Assembly (NCBI RefSeq): GCF_900111745.1
Contig: NZ_FOIJ01000001.1
Location: 496,001 to 560,000, forward strand
Direction: 5' to 3'
Length of the DNA stretch: 64,000 nt
DNA from: Stigmatella erecta
GTDB lineage: Bacteria; Myxococcota; Myxococcia; Myxococcales; Myxococcaceae
Shown here: one piece after another, positions 2,220 to 38,067 of the stretch
How the letters are laid out: each line of letters begins with the position of its first letter
Position numbering within the stretch: the first letter of the stretch is position 1
Translations under genes and position numbers: made by a program
Notes under the pieces: model-generated
The model's database searches: none
What the model saw: the letters and a program-made list of their open reading frames with translations, nothing else
What the model was told of the DNA's origin: nothing

Positions 2220-3421
2220 CCGAGATGCGAGCAAGAGCACGGGTGGCCCTGGCCGCCCTGACCTTGGCCCTGGGGCCCGGGTGCGGATCCAAGGGCGAGG
2301 AGGCGCCGGGCAAGGCCGGAGGCGGGGGCGCGCGGGGCGGGGGCGGCCGGGGGGCCATTCAGTTCCCCGTGGAAGTGGCGCCCGTGGAGGCGCGCGACGT
2401 GCAGTACACCGTCTCCGCGGTGGGGGCCGTGGAGGCCTTCGAGCGCGTGCAGATCACCGCCCGGGTGGCCGGGGTGCTGGACCGCGTGGACTTCTCCGAG
2501 GGGCAGGAGGTGAAGAAGGGCCAGGTGCTCGCGGAGATCGAAACCGCCCGCTACAGCCTCGCGGTGAACCAGGCCCGCGCCGCGCGGGACAAGGCCGTGG
2601 CCACCGCCGAGGAGGCCCAGGCGGGGGCCCAGCGCCGCGCCACCGTGAACGAGCAGCGCCCGGGCCTGCTGCCCGCCGAGGAGCTGGAGAGCTTCCAGAC
2701 GCGCGCGCGCGCCGCGGTGGCCGAGGTCGGCGCGGCGAAGGCGGCGCTGGACAAGGCGGAGTTGGATCTTCGCGATGCCTACGTCCGGGCGCCCATGGAG
2801 GGGGTGCTCCAGACGCGCACCGTGCAGACGGGGCAGTACGTCCAGCCCGGCACGGTGCTGGCCACGCTGCTGCGCCGCGAGCCGCTGCTCCTGCGCTTCC
2901 GGGTTCCGGAGGGCGAGGCCGGGCGGCTCCAGCCCGGCATGGGGGCCCGCTTCACCGTGCGCGCGGATGGGCGGACCTATGACTCGAAGATCACCTACGT
3001 GGCGGCCTCGGCGGACGACCAGAGCCGGATGGTGGTGGTGACGGCGGAGGTGACGGGCGCGGAGTCCAAGGCCCTGCGGCCGGGGGCCTTCGCCTCCGTG
3101 TCGGTGCCCGTGGACACCGCCCGGGACGCACCCGTCATTCCCCAGGCGGCGGTGCGCCCCAGTGAGCGCGGCTTCCTGGCCTTCGTGGTGGAAGGGGACA
3201 AGGCGCGCGAGCGGGTGCTGGAGCTGGGCCTGCGCACCTCGGATGGGCTCGTGGAGGTGCGCCAGGGGCTCCGCCCGGGTGAGCAGCTGGTGGTGCGCGG
3301 CGCCGAGGCCCTGAAGGAGGGCGTGGCCGTGCGCGTGGCGCCAGGGCGCAAGCCCTCCGTCACGGCGGAACCCGGTATCCCCGCGGAGGCGGGGGGGCTC
3401 AACGGAGGCAGCGGGCGATGA
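2216..3421 (+). CDS. RND efflux periplasmic adaptor (membrane fusion protein)
   Basis: This 401-residue adaptor links the inner-membrane pump to the outer-membrane channel. GTG 2216 overlaps the preceding TGA and has GGAAGGA just upstream; ATG 2225 is the alternative. The N-terminus is a lipoprotein-type signal ending in LGPGC, so it is probably anchored in the inner membrane by lipid. A Gly-rich linker precedes the biotinyl-lipoyl-like half (ITARVAGVLDRVDFSEGQEV), a coiled-coil hairpin near residues 110-190, the second lipoyl half (VRAPMEGVLQTRTVQTGQYV), and beta-barrel and membrane-proximal domains. Gene order and 4-base overlaps on both sides support co-translation with its partners. Confidence 0.92.
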   Translation: MTEMRARARVALAALTLALGPGCGSKGEEAPGKAGGGGARGGGGRGAIQFPVEVAPVEARDVQYTVSAVGAVEAFERVQITARVAGVLDRVDFSEGQEVKKGQVLAEIETARYSLAVNQARAARDKAVATAEEAQAGAQRRATVNEQRPGLLPAEELESFQTRARAAVAEVGAAKAALDKAELDLRDAYVRAPMEGVLQTRTVQTGQYVQPGTVLATLLRREPLLLRFRVPEGEAGRLQPGMGARFTVRADGRTYDSKITYVAASADDQSRMVVVTAEVTGAESKALRPGAFASVSVPVDTARDAPVIPQAAVRPSERGFLAFVVEGDKARERVLELGLRTSDGLVEVRQGLRPGEQLVVRGAEALKEGVAVRVAPGRKPSVTAEPGIPAEAGGLNGGSGR

Positions 3422-6400
3422 ACATCACCGAGGTCTGTATCCGGAAGCCCGTCCTCGCCTGGATGCTGATGGCCGCCACCATCGTCTTCGGACTGGTGGC
3501 CGCGCAGCGCATCGGCATCAGCCAGTTCCCGGACGTGGACTTTCCCACCATCAACGTCTCGGTGACGTGGGAGGGCGCCTCGCCCGAGGCCGTGGAGAGC
3601 GATCTCATCGAGCCGCTGGAAGAGGCGGTGATGCAGGTGGAGGGCGTGAAGACGATTACCTCCACCGCGCGCCAGGGCAGCGCCTCCATCACGGTGGAGC
3701 TGGACCTGTCGCGCAACGTGGACCTGGCGCTCCAGGACGTGCAGACGAAGGTGAGCCAGGCCCAGCGCCGGCTGCCGGAGGACGTGGATCCGCCCGTCAC
3801 CTCCAAGACGAACCCCGAGGACCAGCCCATCATGTGGCTGGGCGTGGCGGGCCCCTTCTCGCAGCAGGTGGTGAGCGACTACGCGCGCTACCGGCTGCGG
3901 GAGAAGCTCCAGACGGTGCCCGGCGTGGGCGAGGTGACGCTGGGCGGCTCGCTGGAGCGCAACGTGCGCATCTGGGTGGACTCCCAGAAGATGGATGCCC
4001 AGGGGCTCACCGTCGCCGACGTCATCGCCGCCCTGCAGCGTGAGCACGTGGAGCTGCCTGCGGGCCGCATCGAGACGGAGGGGCGCGAGGTCAACGTGCG
4101 CGTCATGGGCGAGGCGTTGGATTTGACGGCCCTGCGCAACATCGTCGTGCGCCAGCAGGGCGGGGCGACGGTGTACCTGTCGGACGTGGCGCTGGTGGAG
4201 GACGGCTTCGAGGACACGCGGCGCATGTCGCGCGTCAACGGCAACCCCGCCCAGGGCCTGGGCATCCGCAAGCAGCGCGGCGCCAACGCCGTCGCCGTGG
4301 CCCAGGGCGTTCACGCGGTGCTGGCGGAGCTGCGCAAGGACTTGCCCGAGGGGATGGAGATCGGCGTGAACTTCGACTCGACGAAGTTCATCGAGGAGAG
4401 CGTTCACGAGATCGAGTTCGAGCTGCTGCTGGCCTGCATCCTGACGGCGCTGGTGTGCTGGATGTTCCTGGGCTCGCTGTCGAGCACGCTCAACGTCATC
4501 CTGGCCATTCCCATGTCGCTGCTGGGCACCGTGGCGGTCATCTACTTCCTGGGCTTCACGCTCAACACCTTCACGCTCTTGGGGCTGGCGCTGGCGGTGG
4601 GCATCGTGGTGGACGACGCCATCATGGTGCTGGAGAACATCTACCGGCACGCGGAGATGGGCAAGGAGCGCACCCGCGCGGCGCGCGAGGGCACCGCCGA
4701 GATCACCTTCGCGGCGCTGGCGGCCACGCTGGCGGTGGTGGCCATCTTCATCCCCGTCGTCTTCATGCAGGGGGTCATCGGCCGGTTCTTCCTCCAGTTC
4801 GGCGTCACCCTGTGCGTGGCGGTGCTGCTCTCCTATGTCGAGGCCATCACCCTGGCGCCCGCGCGGTGCGCGCAGCTCCTGAAAACCTCCCGCGAGCACC
4901 GCGGGCGGGTCGGGCAATGGGTGGACCGCGGCTTCGCGAAGCTCGAGGGGCTGTATGCGCGCGTGCTGGACCGGGTCCTGGCGCGGCCCCTCTGGGTGCT
5001 GGGCGGGGCGGTGGTGCTGCTGGGCGCCTCCGCGTTCGTCTTCCAGGCGCTGCCCAGCGAGTTCGTCCCCTCGCAGGACCAGAGCCGCCTGACGGTGCGC
5101 CTGCAGACGGCGGTGGGCAGCAGCCTCGACGAGACGGACCGGCTGTTCCAGCAGGCGGAGGCGGTGGTCAACCGGCGGCCGGAGGTCGTCCGCGTCTTCT
5201 CGACGGTGGGCGGCATGGGCGGCTCGGGGGTGAACTCGGGCCAGCTCATGTTGACGCTGCTGCCGCCCGATCAGCGCATGTCCCAGGCCGAGTTCCAGCA
5301 GGTGCTGCGCAAGGAGCTCAACGCCATCCCGGGCCTGCGCGCCGTGGTGCAGGACTTGTCCCAGAGCGGCTTCACCGCGCAGCGCGGCTTCCCGGTGGAG
5401 TTCAGCGTGCGCGGCTCGGACTGGGAGCAGCTCGTGGTGGCCAGCGGGCAGATGCGCGAGACGCTCCAGGCCAGCGGCAAGGTGGTGGACGTGGACACGG
5501 ACTACCAGCTCGGCATGCCAGAGCTGCGCCTCATCCCGGACCGGGCCCGCGCCGCCGACATGGGCATCTCCATCGAGTCGGTGGCCTCCACCATCAACTC
5601 CCTGGTGGGCGGGGTGCGCGTGGGCAAGTACAGCACGGGGGGCCGCCGCATCGACGTGCGGCTCCGGCTGCTGGCCGACCAGCGCGCGCGGCCGGAGGAC
5701 CTGGGCGGGCTCAAGGTGCGCGCCGCCAACGGGGAGCTGGTGCCGCTCTCGGCGCTGGTCCAGCAGGAGGAGCGCCCGGCGCTCCAGGCCATCACCCGGC
5801 GGGACCGGGAGCGCGCCATCAGCATCTTCGCCAACGTGGCCCCGTCCTCGAACCAGGAGGAGGCGCTCGCGCTGGTGGAGCAGGCCGCCAAGCAGCTGCC
5901 TACGGGCACCCGGGCGGTGCTGGGCGGCGCGAGCGTGGCCTTCCGCGAGTCCATGGGCAGCCTGCTCTTCGCGCTCTTCCTGGGGATCGGCGTGGCGTAC
6001 ATGGTGCTCGCCTCGCAGTTCAACTCGTTCCTCCACCCGGTGACGGTGCTCACCATCCTCCCGCTGTCGGTGGCCGGGGCCGCCTTCGCGCTGGGCCTGG
6101 CCGGCATGACGCTGAACATCTTCAGCATGATCGGCCTGCTCCTGCTGATGGGCATCGTGAAGAAGAACTCCATCATCCTCATGGACTACGCGCTCCAGCA
6201 GCGCGAGGAGGGCGCGGACGCGCGGGAGGCCATGCGGCGCGCGGGCCCGGTGCGCCTGCGGCCCATCCTCATGACGTCGCTGGCCACGATGATGGCGGCC
6301 ATCCCCGCGGCGCTGGCGCTGGGCGCGGGCAGCGAGACGCGGGCCCCCATGTCCATCGCCGTGCTCGGCGGCCTGTCCGTGTCCACCGTGCTCAGCCTGC

Positions 6401-7345: not shown

Positions 7346-8287
7346 TTGGATTCCAAAAACGAAAGCCGCATCGCCCTCTTCCTCGACTTCGAGAACCTCG
7401 TCACCAACACCGGCATCAGCTCCGCGGGGTTCGACCTGCAGCCCTCCATGGACCGGCTGCTGGAGAAGGGCAAGGTGGTCTTCCGCCGGGCCTACTGTGA
7501 CTGGTCCCGCTTCGCGGACGCCAAGGGGCGGCTGCACGAGTACGGCGTGGAGCTGGTGGACGTGCCCCCCTCCACGCGGGCGGGCAAGAACGGGGCGGAC
7601 ATGCGCCTCGTCATCGACGCGCTGGAGCTGTGCTACGCGCGCGAACATATCGACACCTTCGTCATCGCCTCGGGCGACAGCGACTTCTGTCCGCTGGCGT
7701 ACAAGCTGCGCGAGAACGGCCGCACCGTCATCGGCCTGGCGGTGAAGGAGTCCACCTCGCCCCTGTTCGTGAAGGCCTGTGACGAGTTCCTCTACCTGCG
7801 CCCGAAGCAGTCCACGCCGCGCGGGGAGAAGGACAAGCGCGGCGGCGAGGAGTCCCCCCGGGGCTCGCGCGCCGGCCGCCATGCGGAGGGCAAGGGGAGC
7901 AAGGCCGCCGAGAAGGAGGCCGCGGCCAAGGCCACCCCCAAGGTGCCGGACATCGCGCGCAAGGTGGTCCAGCGCCTGCTGGGCAGCGCCGCGGGCCCCA
8001 TCAACCCCTCCCTCATCAAGGAGACCATCGTCCGCAAGGAGCCCGACTTCGACGAGCGCGACCATGGCTTCCCCACCTTCGCCCGCCTGCTGGAGGCCAT
8101 GGAGCAGGAGGGCATCCTCAAGCGGCAGCAGCAGGGGCGGCAGTGGTACGTGGTGTCTCCGGAGACGCCCGAGGCCCGGCCCAGCTCCTCGCGCCGCTCG
8201 CGGGAGGCCCGGGAGACCAAGCAGGAAGAGGAGGTCGAGGACGAGGAGCTGGAGTCCTATCCGGACCCTGAGGACAGCGAGGGCTGA
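7346..8287 (+). CDS. NYN domain RNase-like protein with C-terminal OST-HTH (LOTUS) domain
   Basis: This 313-residue protein belongs to the LabA/DUF88-like branch of the PIN-fold NYN family, whose members are predicted metal-dependent RNases. Asp residues expected at the active site are visible in ALFLDFEN (D14), NGADMRLVIDA and ASGDSDFCPL. After a charged low-complexity linker (about 150-205), residues 210-285 (DIARKVVQRLLGS to RQWYVVS) match the winged-helix OST-HTH/LOTUS fold, a known RNA-binding partner of NYN domains. The C-terminus is highly acidic. The only start that keeps the first NYN strand is TTG 7346; its ribosome site is weak. The RNA target is unknown. Confidence 0.85.
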   Translation: MDSKNESRIALFLDFENLVTNTGISSAGFDLQPSMDRLLEKGKVVFRRAYCDWSRFADAKGRLHEYGVELVDVPPSTRAGKNGADMRLVIDALELCYAREHIDTFVIASGDSDFCPLAYKLRENGRTVIGLAVKESTSPLFVKACDEFLYLRPKQSTPRGEKDKRGGEESPRGSRAGRHAEGKGSKAAEKEAAAKATPKVPDIARKVVQRLLGSAAGPINPSLIKETIVRKEPDFDERDHGFPTFARLLEAMEQEGILKRQQQGRQWYVVSPETPEARPSSSRRSREARETKQEEEVEDEELESYPDPEDSEG

Positions 8288-8305
8288 GCCCCGGGGGGCC
8301 TCCGG

Positions 8306-9289
<984 letters not shown>

Positions 9290-28369: not shown

Positions 28370-29362
28370 GTGGGGACCGAGCACGCGCACGAGGTGGCAC
28401 AGGACGCTCCGGAGCGGGTCCCCGGGCCCTTGGCCTTGCTGTGGCTGCTCCTGTGGCGGCCGGTGGACCTGCACTACCGGCTGCACGGCGCGGGCATCCG
28501 CACGCCGGGCGGCCGCATCGGCCAGCTCTGGCGCGAGCAGGGGGAGGGCAACCGCGCCGCGGGGCTGTACGTGCGGCGGATGCTCCTGCTGCTCCTGGGC
28601 GTGTCGCCGGTGCTCACCTTCGCGCTGGGCCTGGGCCTGCACGCGGTGGGGATTCCGCTTGCGGGCGGCTGGGGCATGACGGCGGTGCTGTGCTCGGCGA
28701 TGGGCCTGTTCCTGGCGCTCACCACGGGGCTGGCGGCCGGGATGCTCATGGGGATGCTGGCGAGCCTCGCCATGCTGGTGGGCCTGCACGTGGTGGTGGC
28801 GGAGGCCTTCGGGCCCCGGATGGGCGGCCTGGCCGGGGCCATCATGGGCGGCTGCCTGGGGCTGGTGGGGGGGGTGTGCGCGGGGAGCATCGGCGGGCTC
28901 GCGCGGGGCCAGGGGCTGTCGGTCAACCGGGTGCAGGTGGGCGCCATCGTGCTGAGCCTCGTGCCGATGCTCGTGTGGGGCACGGGTGGGGCGTGGCACG
29001 TGGGCGGGGCCGTGGCGGCCAGCTCGCTGGTCCTGTACCTGGGGGCCGCGTTCCGCCTGTTCGTCTATCCCGTGGAGGTGCTCATCCAGGCGGTGGCCTT
29101 CGCGGTGGAGCGGTGGACGGGGCGGCCCACGCTGCGCTGGTCCCCGGTGCTCCACCATAACCTCTGCTACCTGCGCTACCCCTTCCTGCGGGGGCACCTG
29201 GCGCTGGCGGCGCGCACCCGGCCCAAGGAGGTGCTGGACGTGGCCAACGCCTGCCTCAAGTCGCCGGGCAACTCCATGCTCGGGTGGCCCTGGGTGCTGG
29301 CGGCCCTGGCACAAGCGGAGGCGGCCACGGAGGCGAGGAAGCGCGCGGAGGGCGAGCGGTGA
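28370..29362 (+). CDS. Hypothetical polytopic membrane protein
   Basis: This 330-residue protein starts at GTG 28370 after GGGAAGGGGAG. A hydrophilic N-terminus (about 65 residues, including LHYRLHGAGIRTPGGR) leads into about seven membrane helices spanning residues 70-245, several of them Gly-rich (MGGLAGAIMGGCLGLVGGVC). The C-terminal 80 residues are cytoplasmic, with HHNLCYLRYPFLRGHLALAA and VANACLKSPGNSMLGWPW. I do not recognise the family. The stop overlaps the xerD start by four bases, so it is in the same transcription unit as xerD and probably the YciO-type gene. Confidence 0.6.
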   Translation: MGTEHAHEVAQDAPERVPGPLALLWLLLWRPVDLHYRLHGAGIRTPGGRIGQLWREQGEGNRAAGLYVRRMLLLLLGVSPVLTFALGLGLHAVGIPLAGGWGMTAVLCSAMGLFLALTTGLAAGMLMGMLASLAMLVGLHVVVAEAFGPRMGGLAGAIMGGCLGLVGGVCAGSIGGLARGQGLSVNRVQVGAIVLSLVPMLVWGTGGAWHVGGAVAASSLVLYLGAAFRLFVYPVEVLIQAVAFAVERWTGRPTLRWSPVLHHNLCYLRYPFLRGHLALAARTRPKEVLDVANACLKSPGNSMLGWPWVLAALAQAEAATEARKRAEGER

Positions 29363-30303
29363 GTGGAGGGCTGGAAGGGTACCTGGACGCGTTCATCGCC
29401 TTCATCCGCGCGGAGCGGGGGCTGGCAGGCAAGACGGTGGACGCCTACGCGGCGGACCTCACGGCCTACTTCGAGGACCTGCGCGCGCGCGGGGTGCTGG
29501 ACCCGGCGCGGGTGAAGCAAGAGGACGTGACGGCGCATCTGATGCAGCTGGGGGCGAAGGGCCTGTCCAAGCGCAGCCAGGCGCGGCACTTGGCGGCCGT
29601 GCGCGGCTTTCACCGCTTCCTCATCGCCGAGAAGCACGCGGAGAAGGATCCGACCGAAGACCTGGACACCCCGCGCGCGGCGCGAAAGCTGCCGAGCTTC
29701 CTCACGCTGGAGGAGGTGGAGCAGCTGCTGGCCGCCCCGGACGAGCGCCACCCCACGGGCATGCGGGACAAGGCGATGCTGGAGCTGCTGTACGCCACGG
29801 GCCTGCGCGTCAGCGAGCTGTGCTCACTGGGCATCAACGACGTGCAGTTGGGCGCGGGGTATTTGATAGCGAAGGGGAAGGGGAGCAAGGAGCGCATCGT
29901 CCCGGTGGGCAGCATCGCCTCGGAGAAGGTGCAGGCCTACCTGGGCGGCCCCCGGCAGCACCTGCTGGGCAAACGCCAGTCGCGCTCGCTCTTCATCACG
30001 CCACGGGGTGGGGCCTTCACGCGGCAGGGGTTCTGGAAGCTGCTGAAGCGCTATGCGCTCAAGGCGGGCATCCGCAAGCCCATCTCCCCGCACAAGCTGC
30101 GCCACTCGTTCGCCACCCACCTGGTGGAGCGGGGCGCGGACCTGCGCGCCGTCCAGGCCATGCTGGGCCACGCGGACCTGGCCACCACGCAGATCTACAC
30201 CCACGTCAACAGCGCCCGGCTGCGCGCCGTCTACGACGAGCACCACCCCCGCAGCGAGACTGCTGCGCCCCCACGCCCCAAGCGGCGCAAGCCAGGGGCG
30301 TAG
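29359..30303 (+). CDS. xerD: Tyrosine recombinase XerD
   Basis: This 314-residue recombinase starts at GTG 29359 (GTGA overlap with the membrane protein stop). The SAM-like N-terminal DNA-binding domain covers about 5-90, and the catalytic domain contains R150 (GLRVSEL), K174 (GKGSKER), H245-R248 (HKLRH), H271 (LGHADL) and the nucleophile Y280 (QIYTHV). All six catalytic positions are present, so it should be active. The C-terminal pattern ATTQIYTHV followed by HHPRS is more like XerD than XerC. With a XerC partner it would resolve chromosome dimers at dif with FtsK. The accessory region begins right after its stop. Confidence 0.9.
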   Translation: MSGGLEGYLDAFIAFIRAERGLAGKTVDAYAADLTAYFEDLRARGVLDPARVKQEDVTAHLMQLGAKGLSKRSQARHLAAVRGFHRFLIAEKHAEKDPTEDLDTPRAARKLPSFLTLEEVEQLLAAPDERHPTGMRDKAMLELLYATGLRVSELCSLGINDVQLGAGYLIAKGKGSKERIVPVGSIASEKVQAYLGGPRQHLLGKRQSRSLFITPRGGAFTRQGFWKLLKRYALKAGIRKPISPHKLRHSFATHLVERGADLRAVQAMLGHADLATTQIYTHVNSARLRAVYDEHHPRSETAAPPRPKRRKPGA

Positions 30304-30527
30304 GGTTCGCCAAATGCCAGCACCTCTTCACCCGTTGCTCAGAGCTCATTTACGAGGCTGAAGAGAACACCTCGAAGCAGGCCAGACGACGGAGTGTTAC
30401 AGCCTCAAAAGCAGTCCAAATCTTTGAAATCACAGAAAACAGTCTTGTAGTAATGAGCCTGCCGAGATGGGCTCGGAGTTAGCCGGTCTCAGAGACTCAA
30501 GAAGTGACATTACCTTGGGAATTGCAC

Positions 30528-31502
30528 ATGGCCATCAATCCAAAATCTCCTCCAAGCGATTTGTTTCTTAACGCCTTGGAGGCTATTGAAAACGGCATCG
30601 AAGACTTCGCCACACGGCAGCCGCAACGAACATCATCAGCCCTGCGGAACTTATACGCAGGCGTGCTACTACTTCTCAAAGAAAAGCTGCGTAGGCTCTC
30701 CCCTGCAGGAACGAAGGACGTTCTTATCTACACAAGATTTAGTCCACGCATGGAGGGCGGCAATAAAGTCACGTTGGTCGGCAGCGGAATGACTGTTGAT
30801 TTCAAAGAGATTAGGGCGCGATTCAAAGACCTCGGGCTATCGGCAGACTGGAAGCGCTTAGAGCGGTTACAAGATATGCGCAATCACGTCGAACATCACA
30901 AACCTGCCCACAGCGCCGAATCCATCAGCGAAGCCATCACCCACACGTTCATCATTGTCGTACGGGTGCTTGAGGACCATCTCGAAACGATCCCCGCTGA
31001 TGTGCTCACTGAGGAGACTTGGAAAGTAATGCTTGCCGAGGCAGAAATCTTCAAGACCGTAGAGCACACATGCCGCGAGGCACGCCAAAGCTTACAAGGG
31101 GTTCCCGAAGAGACAGAGGGGTTAATAAATCATCACATACTCTGCCCAGAGTGCGCCTCGTCGTTACTTAAACCGTCCAAAGAAGACTTCCCTGAATGCC
31201 TATTCGTCTGTCAGGGGTGCGGAGAATCCTCGTCAGCAAGCAGTGTTGTCAATGACGCGCTCGACCGCCTGTATGGTGCAGACGAACACATGAACATCCA
31301 AGATGGCGGAGAGCGCTCCTTTGACACTTGCCCCTCTTGCAGTGAGGGAACCTTCTTAGTCGACAAGGACATCTGTGCTTTGTGTGGCGGGAGCAGATTT
31401 TACAAGCAATGTAGGAGGTGCGAGACCTCGCTCAGCCTCGATGAGCAGGATCTCAGTGGGTTTTGTGGCTACTGCTATCATATGGCAAACAAGAACGACT
31501 GA
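30528..31502 (+). CDS. HEPN-like domain protein with three zinc ribbons
   Basis: This 324-residue protein is not from a family I can name. ATG 30528 was chosen; GTG 30504 is possible, and both ribosome sites are weak. Residues 10-150 are helical, with LFLNALEAIENGIEDFA, LYAGVLLLLKEKLRRLS and DMRNHVEHH. R118 to H123 gives the R-x4-H signature of HEPN ribonuclease domains. The C-terminal half holds three Cys4 zinc ribbons: CPEC/CQGC (206-231), CPSC/CALC (268-286) and CRRC/CGYC (295-316). Base composition and codon use are clearly more AT-rich than in its neighbours, a sign of transfer. HEPN proteins are common in toxin and anti-phage systems; that role here is inference. Confidence 0.6.
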   Translation: MAINPKSPPSDLFLNALEAIENGIEDFATRQPQRTSSALRNLYAGVLLLLKEKLRRLSPAGTKDVLIYTRFSPRMEGGNKVTLVGSGMTVDFKEIRARFKDLGLSADWKRLERLQDMRNHVEHHKPAHSAESISEAITHTFIIVVRVLEDHLETIPADVLTEETWKVMLAEAEIFKTVEHTCREARQSLQGVPEETEGLINHHILCPECASSLLKPSKEDFPECLFVCQGCGESSSASSVVNDALDRLYGADEHMNIQDGGERSFDTCPSCSEGTFLVDKDICALCGGSRFYKQCRRCETSLSLDEQDLSGFCGYCYHMANKND

Positions 31503-31589: not shown

Positions 31590-31767
31590 CCCTCTCGGAT
31601 TTCTGAGAGAAGCTCGGAACATCCCCGCACAGGTATCTCTCCACCACCTGTTCGCCCTTACGACTCGTGATGATGCGCACCAAGCCGCTGGGGGCCGTGG
31701 CTTGCCCTATGTTGGTCATGAGGTTCATCAGCACGTAAACGAGCTGCTTCGGATGGCCACCACCAAA
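31590..31767 (-). pseudogene. Histidine kinase C-terminal remnant (diverged copy)
   Basis: On the minus strand this segment reads HPKQLVYVLMNLMTNIGQAT followed by APSGLVRIITSRKGEQVVE. It aligns with HPRQLVQVLVNLMVNAGQAT and APGGRVRISTRREGEQILV of the intact kinase gene at 35973-37247. It then degenerates (CGDVPSFSQKSERG against TGAGMSEETKRR) and lacks both the H box and the G2 box. Divergence is much larger than in the copy at 33.1 kb, so this is an older relic. It cannot encode a working kinase. Confidence 0.6.
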
Positions 31768-31862
31768 CTGACTCCAGCTGAGTTGGAGCAACTGCTGGCC
31801 GCCCCGAACGAGAACCGCCTGTGGCTGCCCCTCCACGACCCAAGCGCCGCAAGGCAATTCAG
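31768..31862 (+). pseudogene. Decayed xerD fragment with internal deletion
   Basis: The plus strand encodes LTPAELEQLLAAPNE, matching LTLEEVEQLLAAPDE of XerD (29701-29745). It then jumps to sequence resembling the last 45 bases of xerD (CCACGACCCAAGCGCCGCAA against CCACGCCCCAAGCGGCGCAA) and a nearby stop. About 500 bases of the core domain are missing. The similarity is short, so the call is moderate. It directly abuts the kinase remnant, indicating a rearrangement breakpoint. Confidence 0.45.
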
Positions 31863-32980: not shown

Positions 32981-33087
32981 AGACTTCTCCTGTCAAGGGT
33001 GCAGGATGCTACCAACGAAGGCCTCCATGTTCACGCTCAGGCCAACCGGAGGTGCCCGATAGGTCCCGCAGGCCCCCTCACACCCTC

Positions 33088-33420
33088 GCCACGGGCGCCA
33101 CGCGCGGCAGGGCCAGGGTGAAGACAGTTCCCTTGCCCAGCTCGCTCTCCACCTCGATGTGGCCTCCGTGGGCCCGGACAATCCCGTACGCCACGGAGAG
33201 CCCCAGCCCCATGCCCACCCCGGGGGCCTTGGTCGTGAAGAACGGCTCGAACAGCCGCCGCTTCGTCTCCTCGGACATCCCCGCCCCGGTGTCCCGCACC
33301 ACCACGAGGACCTGCTCACCCTCGCGGCGCGTGCTGATGCGCACCCTGCCGCCTGGGGCGGTGGCCTGCCCCGCGTTGACCATGACAGGGTGCCCGGCAA
33401 CACATCGTCCACGGACTCAC
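33088..33420 (-). pseudogene. Histidine kinase 3' fragment, near-identical to the 36-kb gene
   Basis: Bases 33088-33385 match 35984-36280 of the intact kinase gene with only a few differences; 33386-33420 match 36498-36532. The 217 bases between (36281-36497) are absent. The junction shares a short CCAT match, consistent with a microhomology deletion. The frame still reads through the ATPase core (VRDTGAGMSEETKRR, GVGMGLGLSVAYGIVRAHGG), but the H box and sensor part are missing. The copy lies in direct orientation relative to the intact gene, with the RCC1 gene between. Confidence 0.85.
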
Positions 33421-33448
33421 GCCCCCACGGCGGGACGCGGCCCGGGCG

Positions 33449-33631
33449 AAGTAGGCCCGCGAGCGCGAGGAACAGGTGGCGCTCCAAATGCTTCGGGAGG
33501 GGTACCCGGCAGAGGCCATTGAAGAGCGCTTCAGCCAAGGCGGCCTGAACCTGACGCGGTTAGCGAGAAGGCATGGGATTGACCTGCGCGCCCGGGGCCA
33601 CGGCCTCCTGAAAGGGCTGCCGGTCTTGTGA
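33449..33631 (+). pseudogene. Remnant of a regulator C-terminus (Fis-type HTH-like)
   Basis: After an in-frame TAG the plus strand encodes about 58 residues ending at TGA 33631, including VALQMLREGYPAEAIEERF and NLTRLARRHGID. The spacing resembles the C-terminal Fis helix-turn-helix of NtrC-type sigma-54 activators common in myxobacteria. There is no upstream ATPase or receiver domain. The stretch 33421-33716 holds nothing else that I can support as a gene. The family guess is weak. Confidence 0.3.
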
Positions 33632-33716
33632 CGGCTCACCTTGCTAGTGTTGGATCGATGGTATCTCGTTGGCTAACGAGTAGCCGCGTACAACGCGCCA
33701 GGACCAAGGGGCCCGA

Positions 33717-35951
33717 ATGCAGAGCAGTCAAGGATGGGTGAGGAAGATGTTGAGCGTATGGCTTGGGCTTTGGCTGGCCGTTGGCTGCGGGCAGGCCACG
33801 GTTGAGACGGATGATCAGGCATTGCGCCTTTCGCCTCTCTGGGGCTCTCAGGCGAGGTCCCGTTTCACCGCAGGGAGTTCTCATTCCTTGGCGGTGCGTC
33901 CAGACGGCACTGTGTGGGCCTGGGGGTACAACGCCTACGGCCAGTTGGGGGATGGCACCTCGAGCCAACACCCTGTGCCTGTGGCAGTGCCAGGCCTGAG
34001 CGGAGTGGTGTCCGTGGCGGCGGGCTCCAACCACTCGCTGGCGGTGCGCTCGGACGGCACCGTGTGGGCCTGGGGGTACAACGCCTACGGTCAGGTGGGG
34101 GATGGCACCACGAGCCGGCGCCCAGTGCCTGGGGCGGTGCAAGGCCTGAGCGGGGTGGTGGCCGTGGCGGCGGGCGACTCCCACTCGCTGGCGGTGCGCT
34201 CGGACGGCACCGTGTGGGCCTGGGGAAACAACTCCAGCGGCCAGGTGGGGGATGGCACCACGAGCCAACGCACCGTGCCTGTGGCGATACAAGGCCTGAG
34301 CGGGGTGGTGGCCGTGGCGGCGGGCGACTCCCACTCGCTGGCGCTGCGCTCGGACGGCACCGTGTGGGCCTGGGGGTACAACTACAGCGGTCAGGTGGGG
34401 GATGGCACCACGAGCCAACGCACCGTGCCTGTGGCGGTGCCAGGCCTGAGTGGGGTGGTGGCCGTGGTGGCGGGCCAATCCCACTCACTGGCGGTGCGCT
34501 CGGACGGCACCGTGTGGGCCTGGGGGGACAACGCCTACGGCCAGTTGGGGAATGGCACCACGAGCCGACGCTTGGTGCCTGGGGCGGTGCCAGGCCTGAA
34601 CGGGGTGGTGGCCTTGGCTGCGAGATCCAACCACTCGCTGGCGGTGCGCTCGGACGACACCGTGTGGGCCTGGGGGTACAACTACAGAGGGCAGCTGGGG
34701 GATGGCACCACGAGCCAACGCACCGTGCCTGTGGCAGTGCAAGGCCTGAGCGGGGTGGTGGCCGTGGCGGCGGGCCACTCCCACTCGCTGGCGGTGCGTC
34801 CAGACGGCACCGTGTGGTCCTGGGGGCACAACGCCTTCGGCCAGTTGGGGAATGGCACCACGAGCCGACGCTTGGTGCCTGGGGCGGTGCAAAGCGTGAG
34901 CGGGGTGGAGGCCGTGGCGGCGGGCCAATCCCACTCGCTGGCGGTGCGCTCGGACGGCACCGTGTGGGCCTGGGGGTACAACGCCTACGGCCAGTTGGGG
35001 GATGGCACCACGAGCCAACGCCCAGTGCCTGTGACAGTGCCAAGCCTGAGTGGGGTGGAGGCCGTGGCGGCGGGCTCCAACCACTCGCTGGCGTTGCGCT
35101 CGGACGGCACCGTGTGGACCTGGGGGTACAACTACAGCGGTCAGGTGGGGGATGGCACCACGAGCCAACGCACCGTGCCTGTGGCGGTGCCAGGCCTGAG
35201 CGGGGTGGTGGCCGTCGCGGGGGGCCACTCCCACTCGGTAGCGTTGCGCTCGAACGGCACCGTGTGGGCCTGGGGGGCCAACGGAAACGGCCAGGTGGGG
35301 GATGGCACCAGAACCCGACGCTTGGTGCCAGTGGCGGTGCAAGGCCTGAGTGGGGTGGTGGCCGTGGCGGTGGGCCAATCCCACTCGCTGGCGTTGCGCT
35401 CGGACGGCACCGTGTGGGCCTGGGGGTACAACTACAGCGGCCAGTTAGGGGATGGCACCACGAGCCAAAGCACCGTGCCCGTGGCGGTGCCAGGCCTGAG
35501 TGGGGTGGTGGCCGTCGCGGCGGGCCAATCCCACTCGCTGGCGGTGCGCTCGGACGGCACCGTGTGGGCCTGGGGGGACAACGGCAGCGGCCGGTTGGGG
35601 GATGGCACCACGGGCCGATCCTTGGTGCCTGGGGCGGTGCAAGGCCTGAGCGGGGTGGTGGCCGTGGCGGCGGGCGACTCCCACTCGCTGGCGGTGCGCT
35701 TGGACGGCACCATGTGGGCCTGGGGGGCCAACGCCTACGGCCAGTTGGGGGATGGCACCACGAGCCAACGCACCGTGCCTGTGGCGGTGCCAGGCCTGAG
35801 CGGGGTGGTGGCCGTGACGGCGGGCTACAACCACTCGCTGATGGTGCACTCGGACGGCATCATGCGGGGGTGGGGGTCCAACGAAGACGGCCAGATTGGC
35901 GATGGCGGACCTACCGACTACGCATACACGCCCGTTCTCTCCTTGTTCTAA
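33717..35951 (+). CDS. RCC1-repeat lipoprotein (beta-propeller)
   Basis: This 744-residue protein has a lipoprotein signal ending in LAVGC (Cys 24), from ATG 33717 preceded by AAGGGG; ATG 33747 is an alternative start. From residue 53 it is made almost entirely of thirteen 50-residue RCC1 units of the form HSLAVRSDGTVWAWGYN...GQLGDGTTSQRTVPVAV, plus a degraded fourteenth. RCC1 units form seven-bladed beta-propellers, so two propellers could be built. Such proteins in myxobacteria are surface or periplasmic and of unknown role; a protein-binding function is likely. The units are unusually alike at the DNA level. Kinase sequences flank it on both sides. Confidence 0.88.
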   Translation: MQSSQGWVRKMLSVWLGLWLAVGCGQATVETDDQALRLSPLWGSQARSRFTAGSSHSLAVRPDGTVWAWGYNAYGQLGDGTSSQHPVPVAVPGLSGVVSVAAGSNHSLAVRSDGTVWAWGYNAYGQVGDGTTSRRPVPGAVQGLSGVVAVAAGDSHSLAVRSDGTVWAWGNNSSGQVGDGTTSQRTVPVAIQGLSGVVAVAAGDSHSLALRSDGTVWAWGYNYSGQVGDGTTSQRTVPVAVPGLSGVVAVVAGQSHSLAVRSDGTVWAWGDNAYGQLGNGTTSRRLVPGAVPGLNGVVALAARSNHSLAVRSDDTVWAWGYNYRGQLGDGTTSQRTVPVAVQGLSGVVAVAAGHSHSLAVRPDGTVWSWGHNAFGQLGNGTTSRRLVPGAVQSVSGVEAVAAGQSHSLAVRSDGTVWAWGYNAYGQLGDGTTSQRPVPVTVPSLSGVEAVAAGSNHSLALRSDGTVWTWGYNYSGQVGDGTTSQRTVPVAVPGLSGVVAVAGGHSHSVALRSNGTVWAWGANGNGQVGDGTRTRRLVPVAVQGLSGVVAVAVGQSHSLALRSDGTVWAWGYNYSGQLGDGTTSQSTVPVAVPGLSGVVAVAAGQSHSLAVRSDGTVWAWGDNGSGRLGDGTTGRSLVPGAVQGLSGVVAVAAGDSHSLAVRLDGTMWAWGANAYGQLGDGTTSQRTVPVAVPGLSGVVAVTAGYNHSLMVHSDGIMRGWGSNEDGQIGDGGPTDYAYTPVLSLF
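33873..35930 (+). repeat. 150-bp tandem repeats encoding RCC1 blades
   Basis: Thirteen exact-length 150-base units run from 33873 to 35822, followed by a degenerate partial unit. Blocks such as GGGGATGGCACCACGAGCC recur unchanged in most units. Variation is concentrated in a few short positions (YNAYGQL, NNSSGQV, YNYSGQV), suggesting homogenisation by recombination with shuffling of a few variants. Confidence 0.93.
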
Positions 35952-35972
35952 TGAAGGAAGGCATGTCAGGCG

Positions 35973-37247
35973 CTACGGACTTGCCGCGGGCGCCACGCGC
36001 GGCAGGGCCAGGGTGAAGACAGTTCCCTTGCCCAGCTCGCTCTCCACCTCGATGTGGCCTCCGTGGGCCCGGACAATCCCGTACGCCACGGAGAGCCCCA
36101 GCCCCATGCCCACCCCGGGGGCCTTGGTCGTGAAGAACGGCTCGAACAGCCGCCGCTTCGTCTCCTCGGACATCCCCGCCCCGGTGTCCCGCACCACCAC
36201 GAGGATCTGCTCACCCTCGCGGCGCGTGCTGATGCGCACCCTGCCGCCTGGGGCAGTGGCCTGCCCCGCGTTGACCATGAGGTTCACCAGCACCTGGACG
36301 AGCTGCCGCGGATGGCCCACGACCCGGCCCACCTCGCCCAGCTCCTTCTCCACCTGGACATGGCCCAGCTGCACCTGCGCGATGCGCAGTCCCATCTCCA
36401 CCTCGGCGTTGAAGTCATAGTCCGTGTGGCGGTCGACCCCGCCCCCCGAGAAGCGGCGCAGGTCCGCGACGATGGCGTTCACCCGCTGGATGCCATCCAG
36501 GGTGCCCGGCAACACATCGTCCACGTACTCGCGCATCACCTCGGACAGCGCCTTCTCTTCCCTCAAGTCCCGGAGCATCGAGCCGACATTGCTCGTCACG
36601 AAGCTCATCGGGTTGTTGATCTCATGCGCCACACCGGCGGCCAGCAGCCCCAGGCTGGAGAGGTGCTCCTGCTTGAGCGCCCGCTCGTGCATCCGCCGCA
36701 TCTCCTGGTGAGCGGTCTCGAGCTGCACCATCGCCTCGCGCAACATCTCCACCCGGCGCTCGGACACCAGGTAGCCGATGACACCGATCAAGGAGAAAGC
36801 CAGCGCCATGGAAGGCCGGGCCCCCGTGAGCAGCGCCACCGTGTTCACCGCTCCCAGGTAGAGCGCCATGCGCAGCCGGACCCACGGGCCAACCCCGAAG
36901 GCCCAGAACATGTTGAAGGGAACGAAGGCCCACAGCAGCACGTGCCACTGGGTGACGACGCCCAGGACACACAAGCCGGTTCCGTTGACGCCCATCCGAA
37001 GCGCTTCCACCACGTGGGACGAGAACCTGTCCGCCAGCCACTCGAGGAAGAGGAGGTTGAACAGGGTGATCCCGAGGCCCATGCACACGAAGAGGGAGAC
37101 CACACGCCACTGGCCCCAGAACGCGCAGATCAACGCCACGTTGATCGCGCCCGCGCCCCATCCCGCCACGCGATGAACGGCGTGCCGGGCCTGTGCCGAA
37201 TCCGTCAGCTGGGCAGCGCGCCCTACCGCGAGCAGCTCGTGTTTCAT
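35973..37247 (-). CDS. Membrane histidine kinase
   Basis: This 424-residue kinase starts at ATG 37247 with AGGTGA upstream; that site contains the stop of the VOC gene, so the two genes are coupled. About five or six helices fill residues 25-180 (VVSLFVCMGLGITLFNLLFL, TGLCVLGVVTQWHVLLWAF). A coiled coil leads to the H box AAGVAHEINNP with H208, and an ATPase with NLMVNAGQAT, VRDTGAGM, FEPFFTTK and GMGLGLSVAYGIV. There is no periplasmic sensor domain of size, so it may sense membrane state or use the helices only as an anchor. Its 3' third is duplicated at 33.1 kb. Confidence 0.9.
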   Translation of the reverse strand: MKHELLAVGRAAQLTDSAQARHAVHRVAGWGAGAINVALICAFWGQWRVVSLFVCMGLGITLFNLLFLEWLADRFSSHVVEALRMGVNGTGLCVLGVVTQWHVLLWAFVPFNMFWAFGVGPWVRLRMALYLGAVNTVALLTGARPSMALAFSLIGVIGYLVSERRVEMLREAMVQLETAHQEMRRMHERALKQEHLSSLGLLAAGVAHEINNPMSFVTSNVGSMLRDLREEKALSEVMREYVDDVLPGTLDGIQRVNAIVADLRRFSGGGVDRHTDYDFNAEVEMGLRIAQVQLGHVQVEKELGEVGRVVGHPRQLVQVLVNLMVNAGQATAPGGRVRISTRREGEQILVVVRDTGAGMSEETKRRLFEPFFTTKAPGVGMGLGLSVAYGIVRAHGGHIEVESELGKGTVFTLALPRVAPAASP

Positions 37248-37251
37248 CCGG

Positions 37252-38031
37252 TCACCTGGGGGCCGAAGGCGCTGCCGGCAACGCATCGCTCGCGCCTTGA
37301 TACAGGGCAAAGGCAGCGCCCTGGGGATCCTCGCACTGGGCGACGCGGTCACCGCTGGGCACCCGCATCGGTCCATTCACGAGCTTGCCTCCCAGCGACC
37401 GGAGCACCGGGAGGGTCGCATCCAGGTCCTTCACCGGCAGGTAGAAGAGCCAGTGGGTGTGAATGGAGGGAAGGCGGGCCGTGTTGGCCATTCCCCCCAC
37501 GTTCTGCCGGGCGCCGCCCCAGGTGAACAGCTGGTAGGTGCCCACCTCGGCGCCCAGCTCCAACGCCCCGGCGGCCTGCCAGCCGAACAGCTCCGCGTAG
37601 CAGGCCCAGGCGTGCTCGCGGTCGGTCGTGTGGAGCTCGTGCCACGCGATGGCCCCCGGATTCGCGTCCCCCCGGCCCGAGCACAGCGCGACCACCGCGC
37701 CCTGCGGATCCTTCAGCAGAACCACGTGCGCTCCCGGGGCGGGCTGCGGCACGGGTCCCAGCCGCTGCGCCCCGAGGGCCACGAAGCGGCGCGCGGACGC
37801 CTCCACGTCCTCGACGCCAATGTGGCCCAGCCAGTGGGCCGGGGCGCCCTGGGCCCGGGCCCGCTCCGGCAAGGCCATGAGCTCCCCCACGCGCCGGGAG
37901 CCCGCCCAGAACACCCGGGCTGCGCCCTCGCGCCGGGCCTCCCAGCCCAGGAGCGCCGTGTAGAAGGCCTCGGCCGCGTCCACGTCCGTGGTTCGGAGTT
38001 CATAGGAAACGAAAGTGCAGGAAGCCGCCAT
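37252..38031 (-). CDS. VOC (glyoxalase/bleomycin resistance) family protein, two domains
   Basis: This 259-residue soluble protein starts at ATG 38031; a GTG ten codons upstream has no ribosome site. It has two vicinal-oxygen-chelate domains, residues 5-120 (FVSYELRTTDVDAAEAFYTA) and 130-250 (AWHELHTTDREHAWACYAEL). The double-domain layout resembles hydroxylase-like and antibiotic-binding VOC proteins of actinobacteria and myxobacteria. Metal ligands cannot be fixed without alignment. Four bases separate it from the kinase gene downstream. The substrate is unknown. Confidence 0.82.
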   Translation of the reverse strand: MAASCTFVSYELRTTDVDAAEAFYTALLGWEARREGAARVFWAGSRRVGELMALPERARAQGAPAHWLGHIGVEDVEASARRFVALGAQRLGPVPQPAPGAHVVLLKDPQGAVVALCSGRGDANPGAIAWHELHTTDREHAWACYAELFGWQAAGALELGAEVGTYQLFTWGGARQNVGGMANTARLPSIHTHWLFYLPVKDLDATLPVLRSLGGKLVNGPMRVPSGDRVAQCEDPQGAAFALYQGASDALPAAPSAPR

Positions 38032-38067
38032 CGCGCCTGTTTCCTCCCGGTTTCGAAACACCGCTAC

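Follow-up and report, generated by a model that had tools for sequence, protein, structure and literature searches.

Near-identical copies of a histidine kinase 3' end around an RCC1-repeat gene in Stigmatella erecta, the possible scar of a recent duplicative insertion

The window analyzed here is a 64,000-nucleotide stretch of the Stigmatella erecta genome (C1:496001-560000 of genome G000 in our numbering), and the feature around which this analysis is built is a gene for an RCC1-repeat protein, a putative beta-propeller, at 33717-35951 on the forward strand. The gene contains internal repeats of 150 bp, and its 744-amino-acid product consists of tandem RCC1 repeats of about 50 amino acids, recognized by Pfam as 13 stretches of PF00415 (E 4.1e-186). 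A signal sequence and a lipobox, both judged by eye, make this product a probable lipoprotein. Convergent with the RCC1 gene, and separated from it by 21 bp, is an intact sensor histidine kinase gene on the reverse strand (35973-37376, 467 aa), in which HATPase_c is matched with an E value of 9.5e-26 and 90.9 bits (Pfam cut-off 26.4) and HisKA with an E value of 5.5e-06 and 26.8 bits, just under its cut-off of 26.9. Two neighbors may be recorded in passing. A glyoxalase-family gene (37252-38061) adjoins the kinase gene; it was not found at this place in the related genomes G002 and G003, and in G001 it is present at 69% amino acid identity. In the gap to the right of xerC, a 332-aa open reading frame (30504-31502) carries CxxC pairs and belongs to no Pfam family, and the equivalent gap of G002 has no similarity to it.

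The DNA immediately upstream of the RCC1 gene falls into two parts on the forward strand. The outer part, 33423-33639, carries the remnant of an open reading frame of 86 amino acids, and the inner part, 33640-33716, is a leader common to the two RCC1 loci whose leaders match most closely (L112 and L093), and would provide a promoter and a ribosome-binding site. On the other side of the gene lies the right junction (35952-35979), in which RCC1 downstream sequence is joined to the kinase tail, with kinase homology starting at 35980. A consensus scan of 33386-36000, limited for promoters to the sigma-70 type, returned no promoter-like or terminator-like site. No gene besides RCC1 was recognized in the insert, where the open reading frame remnant had no Pfam match above cut-off.

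A copy of the kinase 3' end lies on each side of the RCC1 gene, both in the same orientation on the reverse strand. The first repeat blocks, 33085-33385 on the left and 35980-36280 within the intact kinase gene on the right, are 98.7% identical over 301 bp; their four mismatches fall at 33087, 33091, 33311 and 33360 of the left copy, and these positions delimit a longest identical run of 219 bp (33092-33310). The left copy then continues into a second block (33386-33422), 37 bp that derive from a more internal part of the kinase gene and are identical to the corresponding block of the intact gene (36498-36534) at 35 of 37 positions (95%), with the 217 bp of 36281-36497 missing between the two blocks. 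What remains on the left is an open reading frame (33078-33383) with a 101-aa partial HATPase_c domain (Pfam E 1.3e-22), and this fragment is most likely inert, because the consensus scan of the adjoining insert gave no promoter-like or terminator-like site. A previous, sequence-only reading of this DNA had described near-identical direct repeats of the kinase 3' end whose ends lay within 4 bp of those given here, a second block two bases shorter, and a loss of 217 bases from the left copy, and all of these observations hold. It had also placed that loss at a CCAT microhomology, which is right in so far as CCAT is present, within a loose CCCGC...CCAT match between the source points, but this motif sits 2 bases upstream of the breakpoint of the skip, and the exact breakpoint shares no base (0 bp of microhomology). 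Both copies have unique neighbors and lie on the same single contig. The repeat pair is far beyond chance: in 107 regions totaling 1,817,403 bases, mostly picked for their RCC1 genes rather than as a random sample of genomes, it is the sole direct pair of at least 150 bp and at least 95% identity whose members are at least 500 bp apart.

The same site in the sister species G002 offers a direct comparison, since its flanks are about 95% identical to those of the window on both sides. There the Cys-rich gene that lies to the left of 33085 directly abuts the intact kinase 3' end, and the RCC1 gene is missing. The kinase orthologue of G002 is 81% identical at the amino acid level, with DNA identity of about 90-93% in the C-terminal part and about 80% in the N-terminal part. 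At 33087, 33091 and 33311 the base of G002 matches the left copy, and at the partner of 33360 it matches the right copy. Because G002 shares the left-copy bases, we take the terminus kept by the left copy (...APVARV, then stop) to be the original one of the kinase and that of the intact gene on the right (...APAASP, then stop) to be new. In G001 and G003, xerC and GH3 occur in the same order with the kinase, the Cys-rich gene and RCC1 all absent between them, and in the xerC regions of G004, G005 and G006 (8-20 kb), xerC is the sole one of eight window proteins to be found. The kinase thus stands at this place only in this genome and in G002 among the genomes examined, and since the outgroups have no kinase there, the choice between a gain of RCC1 here and a loss in G002 rests on an estimate of age.

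For this estimate the first 7 junction bases were left out, leaving 294 core sites. The two copies differ at 2 of these (0.7%, 95% interval 0.08-2.4%), with one derived change in each copy, and each copy differs from G002 at 23 (7.8%). The duplication should therefore postdate the species split, barring gene conversion, which could give an old duplication the look of a young one, and on these counts a gain of RCC1 in this lineage is favored over a loss in G002. The tail was also sought in 96 genomes of the family (E <= 1e-40, with up to 6 candidates per genome scored). Matches occur in 11 of the 96, this genome is the only one with two tail copies above 92%, and the best match outside it is 92% in G002, followed by 81%. 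With the next best copy at 92%, the duplicated tail most likely derives from the resident kinase gene itself.

These comparisons bear on three further suggestions of the sequence-only reading. It had taken the close identity of the repeats as the sign of a recent event, which the core-site counts support, and it had proposed synteny in related strains as a check, which in G002 reveals an RCC1-free site with the left flank running into the kinase. Its idea that the kinase could have come along in the capture or duplication of the RCC1 gene finds no support at the same site, where the kinase stands without RCC1. Joint capture was also rejected on a wider sample: the 19-20 kb around each of the eight best kinase homologues in the genus (52-81% amino acid identity; L046-L053) contain no RCC1 gene, and a relative of the kinase is present in 5 of 89 other RCC1 regions, with at most 39% amino acid identity.

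Our preferred reading, to which we would assign a probability of about one half, is that the RCC1 gene arrived by a recent duplicative insertion that copied the resident kinase tail in one rearrangement after the split from G002, via replication template switching, which we infer to be the simplest route. The observations behind it are the RCC1-free sister site, the original kinase end on the left, the intact gene on the right, the skip of 217 bp and the closeness of the two copies. If this reading is right, the RCC1 gene and its leader (about 33423-35979) would have entered at the 3' end of the resident kinase gene, and the last 0.55 kb or so of that gene would have been copied a second time. 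A first jump would have led from the kinase tail, by a forward skip of 217 bp, to the 37-bp piece, a second from this piece to RCC1 DNA, and a third from RCC1 DNA back to the kinase end, perhaps via a short match like GCC(A/G)CGGGCGCC, with the kinase staying intact except for a handful of new codons at its end. This candidate match for the right join occurs in 0 of 6 other RCC1 3' flanks compared. For two of the three joins just one side is visible, since the donor was not found, and several separate events could also have led to this structure. The repeats left behind should allow one homologous recombination to remove RCC1, as the sequence-only reading had anticipated, and the product of such a deletion would equal the arrangement in G002.

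Single-crossover (Campbell-type) integration would lead to a very similar structure. In this scenario, a circle carrying the RCC1 gene and a deleted kinase-tail piece of about 340 bp would have crossed over within the shared tail, which predicts a native terminus on the left, a truncated piece joined to RCC1 DNA on the left and an intact gene on the right, as seen. In favor, too, the open reading frame remnant (33473-33616) has Pfam matches to HTH_68 (E 0.017) and to RepB_primase_C (E 0.05), but these are weak, lie below threshold and do not suffice to identify a replicon gene. The kinase piece of the circle must moreover stem from the same or a near-identical genome, given that the next best copy is the 92% one in G002, and RCC1 alone is recognized as a gene in the insert, so we regard this route as rather unlikely.

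A stepwise history would begin with a plain tandem duplication of the 3' part of the kinase gene; RCC1 would then have entered between the two copies, and the left one would have decayed by the 217-bp deletion. Tandem duplications are common, and a large, old one might have left its junction in the older kinase and xerC fragments nearby, described below. Three events would nevertheless be needed within the short time set by 2 differences in 294 sites, and we regard this sequence of events as rather unlikely too.

The insert shows neither a transposon nor an integrase signature. A transposon or insertion sequence was rejected for want of inverted ends and a recognized transposase: comparison of 33386-33500 with the reverse complement of 35931-35990 gives matches of at most 6 bp, there is no inverted pair of at least 20 bp at the insert, and a Tn5 dimerisation match inside RCC1 is weak and under the Pfam cut-off. 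An integrase-driven island was likewise rejected, with no integrase recognized by Pfam between the repeats and the nearby xerC (29284-30303), which lies outside them, conserved as an orthologue (84-100% amino acid identity) in all 7 genomes of the genus.

If instead RCC1 and its repeats were ancestral, G002 would have lost the gene through recombination between the repeats, and G002 does show the arrangement that such a recombination would yield. This is highly improbable, since the copies are 0.7% apart at core sites against 7.8% between the species over the same stretch, and since RCC1 is absent from the interval in G001 and G003 too, though the kinase is also absent there. An assembly artefact at 33.1 kb, conceivable in a draft of 47 contigs, is scarcely credible for a left copy that carries four substitutions, lacks 217 bp, matches G002 in its left flank and is nowhere identical to the right copy for more than 219 bp.

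Where the RCC1 DNA came from can be approached through its relatives. Among the RCC1 loci sampled, the closest is L112 of G002 (C26, site 3241-5799), 89.4% identical over the gene; three RCC1 pairs scored at colinear sites are 90.7, 94.3 and 93.3% identical. The flanks of the C26 site are split over two contigs in this genome, C13 and C35 (8.5 kb), and RCC1 lies beside neither. Homology upstream of the gene starts at -77 in L112 (93%), -76 in L093 (84%), -151 in L116, -215 in L113 and -22 in L094, L114 and L268, with a start at about -71 also seen, and downstream homology, where it extends beyond the stop, ends +6 to +22 past the last codon. A fixed mobile unit was rejected, as the upstream start varies from -22 to -215. 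Further upstream, 33453-33704 matches 8132-8383 of L113, an RCC1 locus on C22 of G002, with 75% DNA identity; the 86-aa frame is open there (8050-8310), upstream of the RCC1 gene, and its remnant in the insert is detected by tblastn with an E value of 5e-17 over 33473-33616. Judged by these matches, the insert is a mosaic relative to the sampled RCC1 loci, and among them no donor locus was found: the gene is closest to the one on C26 of G002, its upstream part to the one on C22.

The insertion is not the only scar in this interval. About 1.2 kb to its left, a decayed kinase-tail fragment of 75-80% identity on the reverse strand (31613-31764), 75-78% identical to 36165-36324, is followed on the forward strand (31780-31856) by decayed fragments of xerC, first an internal piece and then a piece of the 3' tail, the counterparts of 29713-29745 and 30262-30294. 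A remnant of the xerC tail is present at the corresponding place in G002, and the kinase-tail fragment was not found there. The order, kinase-internal and then xerC-internal, would be that of the join of an old xerC-to-kinase tandem duplication. These older fragments point to previous events much like this one, and gain and duplication seem to have struck more than once between xerC and GH3.

How far such scars extend to the RCC1 family as a whole was examined with 98 RCC1 genes of at least 300 bp in 90 regions from 7 genomes, the regions being part of the matches listed. With a limit of 3 kb to either side, direct repeats span 6 of the 98 genes versus 30 of 1990 control positions, and with one of 800 bp they span 2 of 98 versus 6 of 1990 (one-sided Fisher test, p 0.006 and p 0.05, respectively, with non-independent controls). 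The controls come from the same regions, and those with repeats cluster in a few repeat-rich ones. A general rule that RCC1 genes are flanked by repeats was rejected, as it holds for 6 of the 98. At L096 the flanks match G002, the DNA that they enclose, with an RCC1 gene, is absent there, and no flanking direct repeat was found, which weighs against a general mechanism. L095 was rejected as a clean empty site; its flanks match two different G002 contigs. For a wider view of synteny, 20 RCC1 regions of this genome (the window and 19 others) were compared with 17 RCC1 regions of G002, part of those listed: in seven, both flanks are colinear with those of an RCC1 region of G002, two are partly colinear, ten have no colinear match among the 17, and the window faces an RCC1-free site. 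RCC1 genes seem to be a high-turnover family, but one that rarely carries such scars.

Another locus of this genome, the second close case in this survey, offers a partial parallel. At L104 (C10, 7321-9131), an RCC1 gene lies between repeats of 121 bp (90%) and 69 bp (81%), which reproduce the upstream region and the beginning of a gene that Pfam assigns to the AsmA family, one copy without about 55 bp; homology to G002 stops at the end of the repeat, and a different RCC1 gene comes next in G002. It could be that RCC1 lipoprotein genes spread as units of gene and leader without a transposase of their own, through illegitimate, duplicative joining events in which a neighboring gene is partly copied, with the locus in the window a fresh snapshot of the process and the C10 locus an older one, a generalization that we consider improbable.

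Two other loci deserve mention as separate observations. At L111 (this genome, C21, 14800-15115), an RCC1 gene of about 315 bp matches the 5' and 3' ends of the family, as if its inner repeats had been deleted. At L117 (G002, C39), fragments of a transposase-like C-terminus, which we take to be IS91-like, are scattered to either side of an RCC1 gene (287-571, 2734-2867 and 7831-7965); 328-561 matched no Pfam family.

Several known processes resemble what is seen at this locus. Campbell-type integration likewise leaves long direct repeats around the inserted DNA, and of the two gene copies one is native and the other hybrid, but here no replicon or integrase was recognized in the insert, and one of the repeats has a 217-bp deletion. 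In homology-facilitated illegitimate recombination, one end is anchored by homology and the other is joined illegitimately, a pattern that is also similar, whereas at this locus no foreign homologous anchor was detected and the repeat looks resident. Template switching of the MMBIR (FoSTeS) type inserts distant DNA at a duplication junction through several joins, as appears to be the case here. Its joins occur at short matches, whereas one join at this locus has no exact microhomology. The works on MMBIR and FoSTeS, in the parts considered here, concern human and yeast DNA (PMC5120786, PMC11790251).

In Haliangium ochraceum, 15 COG5184 (RCC1-related) genes have been described and a myxobacterial branch of the family suggested (PMC3035250), and MXAN_0889, an RCC1-repeat protein, is listed among the vesicle proteins of M. 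xanthus (PMC4158809). The myxobacterial family is thus multi-copy, as it is here, and how its copies spread is not treated in the parts of these two sources considered. The locus in the window is a clean, well-preserved and recent case of a type of event already known, a duplicative insertion with partial duplication of a gene. It presents a young gene gain whose scar can still be read, with an RCC1-free sister site, two dated copies and mapped joins. Cases of this kind help decide how large gene families with fast turnover are seeded without transposases, and the repeats themselves predict that the RCC1 gene may be lost through recombination between them.
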